From Alcanivorax sp. 24 (GTDB lineage: Bacteria > Pseudomonadota > Gammaproteobacteria > Pseudomonadales > Alcanivoracaceae), in contig NZ_SNUA01000003.1 of assembly GCF_004360225.1 (NCBI RefSeq), forward strand, positions 186,001 to 250,000: a stretch of DNA of 64,000 bases. Direction: 5' to 3'. The notes under the pieces are model-generated. The model saw only the letters and a program-made list of their open reading frames with translations, ran no database searches and was not told the DNA's origin. Both the position numbers and the translations under genes were made by a program. Below are positions 55,240 through 59,742 of this stretch, in pieces. Numbering within the stretch: the first letter of the stretch is position 1; each line of letters begins with the position of its first letter.

Positions 55240-57384
55240 TTACCATCGATAGCTTACTTTCGCCGCGATTTGGCGGCCCGGGTTGTAGTAGTTCGCTGTG
55301 CCTGATCCAACCACATGTTGCTCATCAAGCAGGTTGTGGACATTGACGGCGACACTGATGTTGTTAATGAACTGGTAGCCAAGAGACGCGTCGAAGAGCG
55401 TCTCAGAATCGCTCCTGGAGGTATTGGCCGCATCAAAGTAATAGGAACCGGTGTGACGAGCACCGAGGCCAAAGCTCATTCCGGTATCCGGGAAAGTATA
55501 GTGCCCCCAGAGCGTAGCGGTATGGTTCGGAGCAATAGCGAAGTCGTTTCCTTCCAGTGAGGAACCATCCCGAAGCGTGCCACGGATCACCTCCGGTTCT
55601 ATGTAGGAGTAACCCCCGGTCAGACTCAGGTTATCGGTGAGTTCGACTTTCGCTTCCAGATCAAGACCGCGCACACGGGATTCGCCAATGGTTTCGCGCT
55701 CGATGGTGCCGTTGTCCTGTACCACCGCAATGGTGACGTCGTCTTTGTTCAGCTCGTAAACCGCTGCCGAGAACAAGGCGTTCAGACCCGCGGGAGCATA
55801 TTTCACGCCAATCTCGTGCTGCTCACCACGCTCCGGCTTGACGCCGATGGAGGGTGGGGCGACCGATTCCACATAGCTGACGTAAGTCGAAAACTCATCA
55901 TTGACTTTATAGGTCAGGGCTCCACGTATCGACGTCTCCGAAAAGTCGTCGCTGTCATCGAACGCGGTGCCATAGGATGAGCCCTCGCTGGAAAGATCCA
56001 TCGAGTCGTTGCGAACCCCGGCTGTGATAACGAATCGGTCATGGAAAGACAGATTCTGTGTCAGAAAGACGGACCGGGTGGTGTAATCCTGTTTGTTGAC
56101 GCTGTAGATATCCAGATCACTCGGAGCCCCGGAATAAACCGGATTTGCAATATCGATTTGTTCCGCGTCCCCATAGAAGGAGCTATCGTCCGTCGAAGCG
56201 TCCCGATATTCGACGCCCAGCAAGGTGCTGCTGTCGATGTAATCGAAGCTGACATCGTATTGCAAGATAACGTTGCCGATCAGTTCATGCGCTTTGCTGT
56301 TGGTGCCGAAATAATCCCGATCCACTATCGTATCTGTTCGGGCGGCGGAATCCGTCAGATAGACATAACCAAAGTCGTCGGTCAGATCGCTGTAGCGCAG
56401 ATTCCCTCGCAAGGTGAGTCCATTACTGAAGTCATGGGTGAGCTGTCCGGTCATGCTGGTACGCTCGACATCGTGATAGTTGAAATCCGGCTCCCCAAAG
56501 AAGTCGCTGCGATCGTATTCCCGGTCCAGCGGATAACCGCCACTATTGGGCGTGTTATCACGCTTCAGATAATCCAGAATCAATGTGGCCGAGGTAAAGG
56601 CGGTGGGCTCCCAGGTCAGCGCTCCCATGAAGAACTGATTGTTGTCCTTCGAATGATCGTATTCACGATCGGCATCCTGGAATTTGCCGGTGAAGCGATA
56701 GGCCAGTGTCTCGCCAGCATCCAGGGCATCCCCCACATCGATGCCGGCCTCTTTGTGGTTAAAGGAGCCATAACCCAGGTAACCTTCGCCAAAGCGGTAA
56801 AATTTCGGCCGTTTGCTCACGAAGTTGACCGAACCTCCGGGATCCGCCGGACCGAACAGGGTGGAGTTGGCCCCACGCAACACTTCAATGCGCTCGTAGG
56901 CGTAGGGTTCCTCGCGCACACCGCGCATCGACCCCAGTGTCATCCCGTCGCGGTAGGTAGTGGCCTGGAATCCCCGGATTTTGAAATAATCGTTACGGTC
57001 GTCAGTACCGTAGTAATCGGTGATGACCCCGGGCGTATATTGAAGGACTTCCTCGGTGGTACTGGCGTTGCGCTGCTCAATCTCTTTCTCCGTGATGACT
57101 GACACCGAGGCGGGAGTGTCGAGGATGCTGGTTGCTACCTTGCCCCCGACCCATAGCTCCCGGGCGACAATGGAATTGGCGTCATCATCCGGCGCTATTG
57201 CCTGTGTGTTGACGATAATGGGGGCGAGCCGATATACCGTTTCATCCTCGTTCCCACCGGCCTCCCGGGCGTTCCCGATCACGGGGACAATAGCCAGTGT
57301 CGTGCCGCATAGCAGGGCCGTCGTGGTCCATTGGCAGCGTAGTCGATTTGCTTTGCCCCGGGCTGCGCTGTTGCTGTCAGTCAT
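55240..57384 (-). CDS. TonB-dependent siderophore receptor
   Basis: The product is 714 residues. A long signal region is followed by a TonB-box-like DETVYRLAPIIVNT, the plug domain (ATSILDTPASVSVITEKEIEQRN...LRGANSTLFGPADPGGSVNFVSKRP) and a 22-strand barrel ending in the aromatic SYRW. The plug pattern matches FhuA/FpvA-type ferric-siderophore receptors. The siderophore is unknown and no biosynthesis or ABC genes are adjacent. A Fur-box-like sequence lies upstream. Confidence 0.92.
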   Translation of the reverse strand: MTDSNSAARGKANRLRCQWTTTALLCGTTLAIVPVIGNAREAGGNEDETVYRLAPIIVNTQAIAPDDDANSIVARELWVGGKVATSILDTPASVSVITEKEIEQRNASTTEEVLQYTPGVITDYYGTDDRNDYFKIRGFQATTYRDGMTLGSMRGVREEPYAYERIEVLRGANSTLFGPADPGGSVNFVSKRPKFYRFGEGYLGYGSFNHKEAGIDVGDALDAGETLAYRFTGKFQDADREYDHSKDNNQFFMGALTWEPTAFTSATLILDYLKRDNTPNSGGYPLDREYDRSDFFGEPDFNYHDVERTSMTGQLTHDFSNGLTLRGNLRYSDLTDDFGYVYLTDSAARTDTIVDRDYFGTNSKAHELIGNVILQYDVSFDYIDSSTLLGVEYRDASTDDSSFYGDAEQIDIANPVYSGAPSDLDIYSVNKQDYTTRSVFLTQNLSFHDRFVITAGVRNDSMDLSSEGSSYGTAFDDSDDFSETSIRGALTYKVNDEFSTYVSYVESVAPPSIGVKPERGEQHEIGVKYAPAGLNALFSAAVYELNKDDVTIAVVQDNGTIERETIGESRVRGLDLEAKVELTDNLSLTGGYSYIEPEVIRGTLRDGSSLEGNDFAIAPNHTATLWGHYTFPDTGMSFGLGARHTGSYYFDAANTSRSDSETLFDASLGYQFINNISVAVNVHNLLDEQHVVGSGTANYYNPGRQIAAKVSYRW

Positions 57385-57496
57385 TTTTGAACCCCAGAAG
57401 GTGAAGAACCCATGGCGTACCAAGAGAGCCAAACCGGCGCGTCATGGTTCTTTATCGAGAGGGGTAGGGATTATCGGTGGGGATCGCCCAACGGTC

Positions 57497-57515
57497 AATA
57501 ATGATAACGCTTCTC
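57497..57515 (-). promoter_or_regulatory. Fur box upstream of the TonB receptor
   Basis: AATAATGATAACGCTTCTC matches 14 of 19 positions of the Fur consensus, and the next bases (ACAATCATT) provide a further half-site. It is about 110 bases before the receptor start. Iron-repressed expression is the expected consequence. Confidence 0.65.
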
Positions 57516-57569
57516 ACAATCATTAGCAGAACTAGACAAGAATCACCGGGTGGCATGATGCCATCTATA

Positions 57570-57597
57570 ATTGGGTGTAATGTATGTTATGTTAAAT
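57570..57597 (+). other. dif-like Xer recombination site (perfect XerD arm, degenerate XerC arm)
   Basis: The right arm TTATGTTAAAT (57587-57597) is identical to the XerD-binding arm of E. coli dif. The central hexamer TGTATG differs from TGTATA at one base. The left arm ATTGGGTGTAA (57570-57580) keeps 6 of 11 bases of the XerC arm GGTGCGCATAA. A good XerD arm with a poor XerC arm is what attachment sites of TLC-type elements look like. It lies 72 bases upstream of the XafT-family gene. It could also be the host dif itself if this lineage has a diverged XerC arm. Confidence 0.8.
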
Positions 57598-57669
57598 ACA
57601 CAAGACGCCAGAACTTAGGTAAATACGCTTAAACTATACCCTAGTGTTTTCGCAGTACCTGGGGGACCC

Positions 57670-57999
57670 ATGGAAGACTTCACCGAACTGGCCTTTGGCC
57701 TCGCACCACGCCAAATCGCGGATATCGTCGGCTGCTCACTCTCCACCGCACGGCGTTACCACCACAGCCGGACCGCACCAGACCACGTCCTTCGATTGCT
57801 GGCCATCCACCGCAATGGACACCTTCCTACCACGTGCCCAACATGGCGCGGCTGGCGCGTTCAAGGCAGTCACCTGATCGATCCGATGGGCTTGGAATAC
57901 GCCGCCGACGACGTAACCGGCCTTTGGGTCTACCGCCAGCTTGCCGACGAATACCGGCGCATCCTCAGCCATCCCATCCAATACGCCCTGGAACTCTGA
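57670..57999 (+). CDS. VC1465/XafT-family (DUF3653) predicted Xer recombination activation factor
   Basis: The product is 109 residues. The N-terminus is helix-turn-helix-like (LAPRQIADIVGCSLSTARRYHHSRTAPDHVLRLLAIH), and the second half has the family signature TWRGWRVQGSHLIDPMGLEY and LWVYRQLADEYRRIL. The prototype, XafT of the Vibrio satellite phage TLC, binds XerD and triggers FtsK-independent recombination at a dif-like att site. The dif-like site directly upstream supports the same role here. The assignment is from motif memory, not a search. A GGGGG stretch precedes the ATG. Confidence 0.75.
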   Translation: MEDFTELAFGLAPRQIADIVGCSLSTARRYHHSRTAPDHVLRLLAIHRNGHLPTTCPTWRGWRVQGSHLIDPMGLEYAADDVTGLWVYRQLADEYRRILSHPIQYALEL

Positions 58000-58039: not shown

Positions 58040-58297
58040 ATGCGTGCCGACACCTATGTACGGGCCCGGATATCCACGGAAACCAAGGAACGCGCCACCG
58101 CCGCGCTGGAGCGCATGGGCCTCAGCGTTTCCGACGCGATTCGGCTGCTGATGCTGCGCGTGGCGGATGAAGAGCGCCTGCCCTTTGCCGTGACCGTGCC
58201 CAACAAAACCACACAGAACGCCATGCGGGAACTGGACGCCGGGAGAGGCAAGCGGTTCGATAGCGTCGACGAGCTTTTCGACGATCCAGGGCTTTGA
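58040..58297 (+). CDS. RelB/DinJ-family antitoxin
   Basis: The product is 85 residues with the ribbon-helix-helix opening TYVRARISTETKERATAALERMGLSVSDAIRLLMLRV, typical of DinJ/RelB. It has a C-terminal toxin-binding tail (TTQNAMRELDAGRGKRFDSVDELFDD). AGGAG lies nine bases before the ATG. It is complete, but the toxin that follows is truncated, so it is an orphan antitoxin in effect. It is 40 bases downstream of the XafT-family gene. Confidence 0.88.
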   Translation: MRADTYVRARISTETKERATAALERMGLSVSDAIRLLMLRVADEERLPFAVTVPNKTTQNAMRELDAGRGKRFDSVDELFDDPGL

Positions 58298-58298
58298 C

Positions 58299-58412
58299 GT
58301 GCTGACACCGATTCGATCCAGTCAGTTCAAGCGTGACGTGAAACGAGCACAGAAGCGGGGCAAGGACATGACCAAGCTCCGCGCCCTGCTGATGCTGCTC
58401 ATCGAGGAAAGT
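58299..58412 (+). pseudogene. Truncated YafQ-type toxin (N-terminal 38 codons)
   Basis: From GTG 58299, the frame reads MLTPIRSSQFKRDVKRAQKR then GKDMTKLRALLMLLIEE, the N-terminal third of YafQ toxins (which show SKDVKLAQKRHKDMNKL). After codon 38 the frame continues to 58517 but only as an out-of-frame shadow of the araC fragment. The catalytic histidines and the C-terminal RNase core are missing, so it cannot be active. It starts two bases after the antitoxin stop, the normal spacing for such a pair. Confidence 0.8.
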
Positions 58413-58416
58413 TGCC

Positions 58417-58980
58417 ATGGCCCGCTGGTTCACCAACCGCAACGATCTGGCCCCCAAATGGGTCTCGTTCCAGCACCCGGAGCCTTCAGACACCACGCCG
58501 TATTCCGCGTTTTTTAACTGCCCGGTACATTTCTCCCGGCCTGAAACCGCGGTCTGCGTTGATGGTTCTTACCTGTTTATCACCCTGCCCCACGCCAATC
58601 CCCAGCTTCGCCAGATGATGGACGATGTCTGCGCCGGCCTGGTAAAGCAACTGGGTACCGCGCTGGAACCTGGCTGGGTCGCACAGGCCCGCCAGTTGAT
58701 ATTGAAGTCCTTCAAAGCAGGGCTGCCGGATATTGGCACCGTTGCCGACGCTACCAACATGAGCGAAGAAGAGCTGAAATCCCAGCTGGCCCAACGTGGC
58801 ACCAGCTTCCGGGGATTTGTTGATGAGTTGAGGCAGGCTCTGGCACTGGGCTATGTCAGAGACCCGAGCCTGAGTCTGGTTGATATCGCCTACCTGCTCG
58901 GGTTTTCAGAACAAAGCGCCTTCCAGAGGGCCTTCAAGCGCTGGACGGGGAAAACGCCGGGGGAATATCGCAAATTTTGA
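58417..58980 (+). pseudogene. 5'-truncated AraC-family regulator (C-terminal 187 codons)
   Basis: The frame encodes the end of an AraC-type ligand-binding domain (PYSAFFNCPVHFSRPETAVCVDGSYLFITLPHANPQLR) and a complete double helix-turn-helix ending LSLVDIAYLLGFSEQSAFQRAFKRWTGKTPGEYRK. Full-length members of this branch have about 330-340 residues, so roughly the first 145 are missing. The break lies directly against the truncated toxin gene. The DNA-binding half is intact and an ATG is available, so a short product may still be made. Confidence 0.78.
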
Positions 58981-59124: not shown

Positions 59125-59742
59125 TCATTTCCTTGTGCCGGCCGCGTACAGCAGGGCATCGTCCAATCGGTCGTTGCCCCAGAACATGGCGTCACCAATC
59201 AGAAAGGTCGGCGCGCCAAACAATCCGCGGTCCAGAGCCTCCTGCGTTTGCTCTTTCAGGCGCTGTTTGTTGTGGTCGGATTGGGCTGCCTTCAGCAACG
59301 ATTCCGCCGGCAGGCCCATCTCCGCCAGGATCCCTCCCACCTCTTTCTCGCTGTTGATATCCCGGTCACGCTGAAAGTTGTGGAGCATCACCTGCCGGTT
59401 GAACTCCGCGATCCATGGGGTCTCCGCCCCCAGCAGCGCCACCCGTGAGGAGAGCAGTCCGTTGCGGGGAAAGGTGGAGGGCCGGGACCATGGCAACCGG
59501 TATTTTTCGCACTGACGGAGCATGTCCTGCCACACATAACGCAGTTTTTCCCGCTGCGCCAGGAACGGCGATCCCTGCCATCCCAGCGCCTTGAATACGG
59601 GGCCGAGCAGGAACGGCTTCCAGGCGATGACGACGCCGTGCCGTTCCGCTTCCTCTTCCACCCGCATGATGCTCAGGTAACTGTAGTTACTGCCAAAGTC
59701 GTACCAGAACTCCATGACGGGAGCGACGTGTTTCGAAACCAT
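59125..59742 (-). CDS. DsbA-family / 2-hydroxychromene-2-carboxylate isomerase-like protein
   Basis: The product is 205 residues. FWYDFGSNYSYLSIMRVEEEAERHGV and LFGAPTFLIGDAMFWGNDRLDD are the two ends of the kappa-GST/HCCA-isomerase fold. No CxxC is present at the DsbA active-site position, where a serine-type SNYSYL is found, favouring the glutathione-dependent isomerase branch over a thiol oxidase. The substrate is unknown. It is 26 bases downstream of the CmcJ-like gene and likely co-transcribed. Confidence 0.8.
   Translation of the reverse strand: MVSKHVAPVMEFWYDFGSNYSYLSIMRVEEEAERHGVVIAWKPFLLGPVFKALGWQGSPFLAQREKLRYVWQDMLRQCEKYRLPWSRPSTFPRNGLLSSRVALLGAETPWIAEFNRQVMLHNFQRDRDINSEKEVGGILAEMGLPAESLLKAAQSDHNKQRLKEQTQEALDRGLFGAPTFLIGDAMFWGNDRLDDALLYAAGTRK

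Follow-up and report, generated by a model that had tools for sequence, protein, structure and literature searches.

The window analysed here, that is, the whole stretch of 64,000 nucleotides from Alcanivorax sp. 24, corresponds to positions 186001-250000 of contig C3, which is 419,933 bp long, in a 4.76 Mb draft genome of 99 contigs. It contains a dif-like site for the Xer recombinases and, beside it, a gene of the DUF3653/VC1465 family, and these two features, together with the truncated genes that follow them, are the subject of this report. Site and gene are laid out as follows.

57570-57580, forward strand: XerC arm of what is most likely the chromosomal dif, ATTGGGTGTAA, a genus-typical arm
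57581-57586, forward strand: central region of the same site, TGTATG, whose final G is unique among 45 family sites
57587-57597, forward strand: XerD arm, TTATGTTAAAT, an 11/11 match, which probably came from an integrated element, judging from the intact right-side elements of genomes G003, G009, and G052
57670-57999, forward strand: DUF3653/VC1465-family gene, XafT-like, an intact open reading frame of 109 amino acids that begins 72 bases past the XerD arm and is transcribed away from dif

An earlier sequence-only reading of this DNA had reported the full match of the XerD arm, a 5/6 match of the central region, and a gene 72 bases from the site, and all three hold at these positions.

The site has the form of a chromosomal dif, with 28 bp, both the XerC and the XerD arm, a 6 bp centre, and one copy per chromosome. 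At up to 3 mismatches the draft genome contains no other dif-like site and 0 matches to the reversed pattern, and a survey of the family found exactly one dif site at up to 2 mismatches in 45 of 46 genomes, the exception, G026, being 86% complete. The window has a single copy of the XerD arm core, the 10-mer TATGTTAAAT, which appeared in 0 of 100 shuffles; it is not expected by chance. The XerC arm had been called degenerate in the sequence-only reading and this has to be corrected because XerC arms ending in GTGTAA are present at 8 of the 11 other sites of the genus, including those of G018, G019, and G029, which are the three nearest relatives by flanking DNA. The arm ATTGGGTGTAA has 0 mismatches to the arm patterns that we used, but these patterns were written from these very sites, and it differs from the XerC arm of E. 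coli. The sole unusual base in the site is the sixth of the centre, a G where all 11 other genus sites have an A. Two other identities were considered for this site and rejected. It is not a degenerate phage attP, since its XerC arm is genus-typical. Neither is it an attachment site of the TLC/XafT type, as had been supposed from the sequence alone: in attP-TLC the XerC arm and the centre are intact and it is the XerD arm that is degenerate (accessible text of PMC4246890), which is the reverse of the supposed geometry, and the window dif has both arms.

Over 84 kb around the site, the motif GGGNAGGG occurs 15 times forward and once in reverse on the left, and 0 and 5 times, respectively, on the right (Fisher p = 0.0003). 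The motif is the E. coli KOPS consensus, and these KOPS-like motifs point toward the site from both sides, as FtsK-orienting motifs do at a chromosomal dif. Since the GC skew is uninformative, it is the KOPS-like polarity that places the locus at or near the replication terminus, and to that extent the earlier suggestion of such a location is borne out. In five relatives that consist of a single contig and have a dif, it is at 44-51% of the contig in G001, G013, G019, and G034 and at 17% in G004, the contig starts being unknown. The host genome encodes XerD (392 bits, model cut-off 329.6) and a second protein with a full-length match to the XerD model (290 bits). Because the site is the only dif-like one, has a genus-typical XerC arm, and is flanked by convergent KOPS-like motifs, 57570-57597 is most likely the working chromosomal dif.

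The open reading frame next to it matches PF12375 (DUF3653) at 24.9 bits, above the gathering cut-off of 22.4, and the model NF040522 (VC1465_fam) at 32.3 bits (E 8.1e-8, profile positions 7-95 of 111), below the curated cut-off of 70, which is reached in 0 of the 46 family genomes. The name of the latter family in NCBIfam is 'VC1465 family Xer recombination activation factor'. As its cut-off is not reached, we call the protein XafT-like and not XafT; the DUF3653 half of the original assignment is upheld and the VC1465 half is left short of its threshold. This is the one DUF3653 match in its own genome. The N-terminus has helix-turn-helix matches, all under the Pfam cut-offs, and a single-sequence structure prediction (mean pLDDT 64.4) was too weak for a fold search. 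In a tree of 11 short and divergent sequences the window protein groups with the G003 protein (support 0.98), and the two genes start at similar distances after the XerD arm, 72 bp in the window and 58 bp in G003. The search of viral_contigs gave no relative of the window protein, and that of genome_contigs gave only a partial match, in Hymenobacter frigidus. Distant matches were found in 1 phage record and 3 plasmid records, and one of these records, L117 (Photobacterium), has no clear site near its gene. The best PHROG for 57670-57999 is phrog_1668, whose label, 'tail assembly protein', is probably misleading.

Genes of this kind keep to dif in other genomes. A protein search of the 46 family genomes found a homologue in 6, the own genome included, all of them near dif. 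PF12375 was above its cut-off in 5 of the 46 family genomes and at E<=1e-3 in 5 of 390 genomes of the order, and the union of these searches is 7 genes in 7 genomes (G000, G002, G003, G009, G014, G052, and G093). All 7 confident genes, which come from three families, are at most 1.5 kb from dif and all 7 point away from it; the link between gene and dif is therefore not accidental. The family search returned 37 rows, of which the 32 under the cut-off were treated as noise. PF12375 also misses members: G034 went unmatched in both the family and the order search despite its homologue at dif. The NF040522 model recovers G034 again and adds G010 and G023, both at dif. It matches mostly on the helix-turn-helix alone, and 9 rows extend past profile position 60; 8 of these are at dif and the ninth, in G040, contains stop codons. 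A weak row in G036 that covers the helix-turn-helix only (positions 5-51, E 0.022) is also at dif and was not counted.

In 8 of the 9 other genomes (G002, G003, G009, G010, G023, G034, G052, and G093) dif and a second half-site enclose an element; the ninth is G014, whose contig breaks off 7.3 kb past dif. Five of the eight two-ended elements are on the XerC side, to the left of dif, with a TLC-type half-site, and three are on the XerD side, to the right, with a mirror-image half-site. The right-side prophage of G003 is 6,405 bp long, its far end reads GCATACGACAC-TGTATA-TTATGTTAAAT, and its genes are inoviral (Zot-type ATPase, Rep_trans, and G5P); judged by this content it is a complete filamentous prophage at dif. 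The right-side elements of G009 (12,344 bp) and G052 (12,869 bp) have the same layout. For the left-side elements (G034, 12,289 bp; G010, 11,579 bp; G093, 14,298 bp; G023, 11,584 bp; G002, 2,327 bp) a TLC-type far end was predicted ahead of inspection, and in all five the far end has an XerC arm and centre that differ from the dif of the same genome by 0-2 mismatches and an XerD arm with 4-7 mismatches in 11; XerC-arm half-sites at up to 4 mismatches are expected by chance, from simple base shuffles, 0.05-0.9 times per stretch. Between an XerC-arm half-site and dif, the short G002 element (L052/L142) holds a helix-turn-helix regulator (by eye), the DUF3653 gene, and the gene for a G2P-type replication protein, and it resembles a minimal TLC-type satellite. 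The capsid protein of the G010 element matches P2_N and P2_C (Pfam). The 11-14 kb DUF3653 prophages at dif (L132 in G052, L139 in G010, L131/L140 in G093, L141 in G023, L051/L138 in G034, and L053/L133 in G009) have a corticovirus-like, tailless look; this was judged by eye, with the capsid confirmed by Pfam for G010 only. The 'plasmid unnamed1' of Vibrio gazogenes (NZ_CP018837.1, L116) is a circle of 11.9 kb with the site AGACGTGACTG-TATATA-TTATGTTAAAT, that is, a degenerate XerC arm, TATATA, and an intact XerD arm, 174 bp before its DUF3653 gene, and with a capsid gene annotated P2. It is probably the circular, unintegrated form of a corticovirus-like temperate phage. The DUF3653 genes of G009 and G014 have a ratio of nonsynonymous to synonymous substitution (dN/dS) of about 0.08, a mark of purifying selection, which suggests that the gene matters to its elements.

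To the right of the DUF3653 gene of the window is a block of genes that ends at a host gene.

58040-58297, forward strand: relB/dinJ-type antitoxin gene, intact (PF04221 72.3 bits, TIGR02384 73.2 bits)
58299-58412 (end approximate), forward strand: YafQ/RelE-type toxin gene of which only the 5' part remains (25.0 bits against a cut-off of 30; profile positions 5-37 of 88)
58417-58980, forward strand: 3' fragment, 187 amino acids, of an AraC/QhpR/GliR-type regulator gene, with the N-terminal half missing
59125-59742, reverse strand: DsbA-family gene, the first host gene right of dif common to the nearest relatives (91-92% identical in G018, G019, and G029), which bounds the insert

Among the family matches listed, its own excluded, the open frames related to the AraC fragment are 288-489 amino acids long as against its 187, and the best relative is 43% identical. 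Both relE and the AraC gene are cut at about 58412-58417, a putative deletion junction at which the relE remnant is fused to the AraC fragment. No integrase was found in the remnant, but most of the element is gone.

The right-side layout, in which dif is followed by a DUF3653 gene pointing away from it, and the grouping with the G003 protein make a right-side prophage remnant the simplest account. We therefore think it quite probable that the locus is the decayed dif-proximal end of an XerD-side, Xer-dependent prophage that keeps an intact XafT-like gene and is most like the filamentous phage of G003. Elements of this kind are already known, and the window would add a decayed copy from a new host; the parent element was probably filamentous. 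The account starts from what was observed, namely, the gene family, its linkage to dif, the geometry of the intact relatives, the truncations, the strong signs of dif, and the failure to find a second site. The prophage remnant would span 57587 to about 58412. The phage circle would have carried a one-armed attachment site, with an intact XerD arm and a poor XerC arm, just upstream of the DUF3653 gene; the DUF3653 protein would have been the Xer activation factor, and XerC and XerD of the host would have joined the circle to dif without FtsK. Integration would have given a hybrid dif on the left, with the XerC arm of the host and the XerD arm of the phage, and, on the right, a site with one arm. 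A deletion presumably later took the right end and the toxin part of the relBE pair and left the AraC fragment. By analogy with the intact elements, the XerD arm of the window dif was probably supplied by the integrated element, and there is a faint indication that the final G of TGTATG may be a relic of the phage site. In IMG/VR, 13 stretches have TGTATG in front of an intact XerD arm, of which 4 are inovirus-like by eye (L119, L120, L126, and L128), one (L129) has a full dif-like site, and the other 8 are chance-like or undecided.

Several observations weigh against this account. A genome search allowing up to 3 mismatches gave no second half-site, and within 26 kb right of dif there was none above chance; the genome search does catch the half-site of G003, but one as divergent as that of G009 would escape it. 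An IMEX, in the sense of a Xer-exploiting integrative element with dif at one end and a further half-site at the other, was thus not recognised in the window, and since no right-hand site was found, this genome offers no proof that integration took place at this dif. The genome search for a host dif and a second site that had been proposed along with the sequence-only reading therefore yielded the likely host dif and not its partner. The remaining block has no phage structural or replication gene. The whole block is absent from G018, G019, and G029, which have other short genes right of dif and then dsbA, but a clean empty site is present in 0 of these 3, and G029 is unlike G018 and G019 right of dif. 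Because the XerD arm is of the host type, the hybrid site is argued from one base of the central region and from analogy. Across the 84 kb around the site the GC skew has no clean switch there. To these points are added the NF040522 score below the curated cut-off, the few and short sequences of the tree, the merely partial degeneracy of the XerC-like arm of G052 (3 mismatches; 272 of 5,000 random 11-mers are as good or better), and the PF12375 match that exceeds the cut-off in 1 of the 14 control genomes, which are outside the counts of distance to dif.

Other explanations have to be set against a prophage remnant. The DUF3653 protein could be mainly a phage transcription regulator that is at dif since its parent phages integrate there, with no part in recombination. 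The helix-turn-helix matches at its N-terminus, weak as they are, would suit this, as would another HTH_3 (Cro/CI-like) gene close to the attachment site in the G003 element and the V. gazogenes replicon and, by eye, in G052, which indicates that the region is regulatory. We nevertheless consider it unlikely because NCBIfam names the family an Xer recombination activation factor, and because the gene keeps to the site and points away from it whether the element is inoviral or corticovirus-like and whichever side of dif it occupies. The sequence-only reading had left room for either a remnant or a minimal form of an element exploiting Xer, and of these the remnant fits best. A minimal living element or a domesticated module, that is, a one-gene Xer activator still acting on dif, would explain why the DUF3653 open reading frame is intact, and the dN/dS ratio of the G009/G014 pair and the existence of the 2,327 bp G002 element, with its DUF3653 gene, Rep gene, and regulator, are in line with it. 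Yet relE and the AraC gene are truncated, no second half-site is found, and the window protein has no match in the 12 other genomes of the genus, among which the NCBIfam model finds a family gene at dif only in G023, where the element is a different one and lies on the left side; a functional minimal element is thus very improbable. The least credible explanation, to which we give hardly any weight, is that a stray phage gene landed by dif through an unrelated insertion. The stretch by dif is variable and hosts other elements in relatives, such as Tn554-like genes (by eye), but 7 of 7 confident DUF3653 genes in the searched genomes, from three families, are at dif, and the spacing and direction in the window fit those of the intact elements. 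Although the site is the only dif-like one found, the gene is therefore not merely adjacent to it, as relatives show the same linkage of such genes to dif.

A wider proposal can also be made, which we put forward tentatively and with more doubt than conviction. One DUF3653 family may serve the Xer integration of unrelated viruses, filamentous and corticovirus-like, at two mirror-image sites, the TLC type left of dif, with no good XerD arm, and the type right of dif, with no good XerC arm, to which the parent of the window element would belong; its members could be general Xer activators that make up for either missing arm and not substitutes for the XerD arm, and what is left of the element in the window could still be active on the dif of its host.

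The surroundings of dif have further features. To the left in the window, the gene at 55240-57432 encodes a TonB-dependent receptor and is inverted with respect to the relatives G018 and G029, and immediately left of dif, at about 57500-57525, is an AT-rich inverted repeat that looks by eye like a Fur box. In G001, G004, G017, G038, and G039 (L055, L056, L057, L105, and L106) dif has the XerD arm TTATGTTAATA, and right of this type of dif is a three-gene set that by eye comprises Tn554-family transposition genes (G001 and G038). Three g2 species are 94-99.9% alike in the 4.3 kb of DNA to the right of dif.

XafT-like elements are reportedly widespread in gamma- and beta-proteobacteria, and for this reason we make no claim to a first report. 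Integration at dif by filamentous phages, TLC, and tailless vibriophages is already described in the accessible text of three papers (PMC4246890, PMC9966536, and PMC11630473), and the last of them leaves open there whether tailless vibriophages at dif use the host or a phage recombinase. The term 'Xaf' has 0 occurrences in the accessible text of PMC9966536 and PMC11630473, and in the literature searched there was no text tying DUF3653 to corticovirus-like prophages; the main XafT papers were outside reach and the link may be known. The NO16 prophages ('Asemoviridae'), which are corticovirus-like relatives of PM2, have dif-like sites, and the right half of the PM2 site is TATA-TTATGTTAAAT (accessible text of PMC9966536); this resembles the one-armed sites seen here, and G010 has a P2-type capsid, but the window has no capsid gene. 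With the filamentous prophages CTX and VGJ there is a likeness in that G003 has inoviral genes between dif and the half-site and the window protein is closest to the DUF3653 protein of G003. They differ in that their integration is XerC-first, according to the accessible text of PMC4246890.

The present analysis shows that this bacterial family harbours Xer-dependent elements that carry XafT-like genes, of which the window locus is a modest, decayed example. It also gives a rule for finding prophages: look for a DUF3653 gene by dif that points away from it, and predict the far end from the side on which it is found. Another of the closest known systems is the satellite phage TLC of Vibrio cholerae with its XafT. 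An element of V. cholerae carries XafT, which activates Xer recombination without FtsK (accessible text of PMC9765430). As with TLC, a DUF3653-family gene is found in a small element at the chromosomal dif, apparently by way of host XerC and XerD, and the elements of the five left-side relatives end in a half-site of the TLC type, as far as the accessible text describes it. Unlike TLC, the window, G003, G009, and G052 are of the mirror type, with the element on the XerD side and a poor XerC arm in the site of the element, and the window has one site without the rest of the element. In the intact relatives, XafT-like genes thus come with two opposite one-armed sites, which raises the question whether the factor replaces a missing recombinase arm and, if so, which one. 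How a DUF3653 factor helps at a right-side phage site that has no good XerC arm is the most interesting question raised by this comparison.
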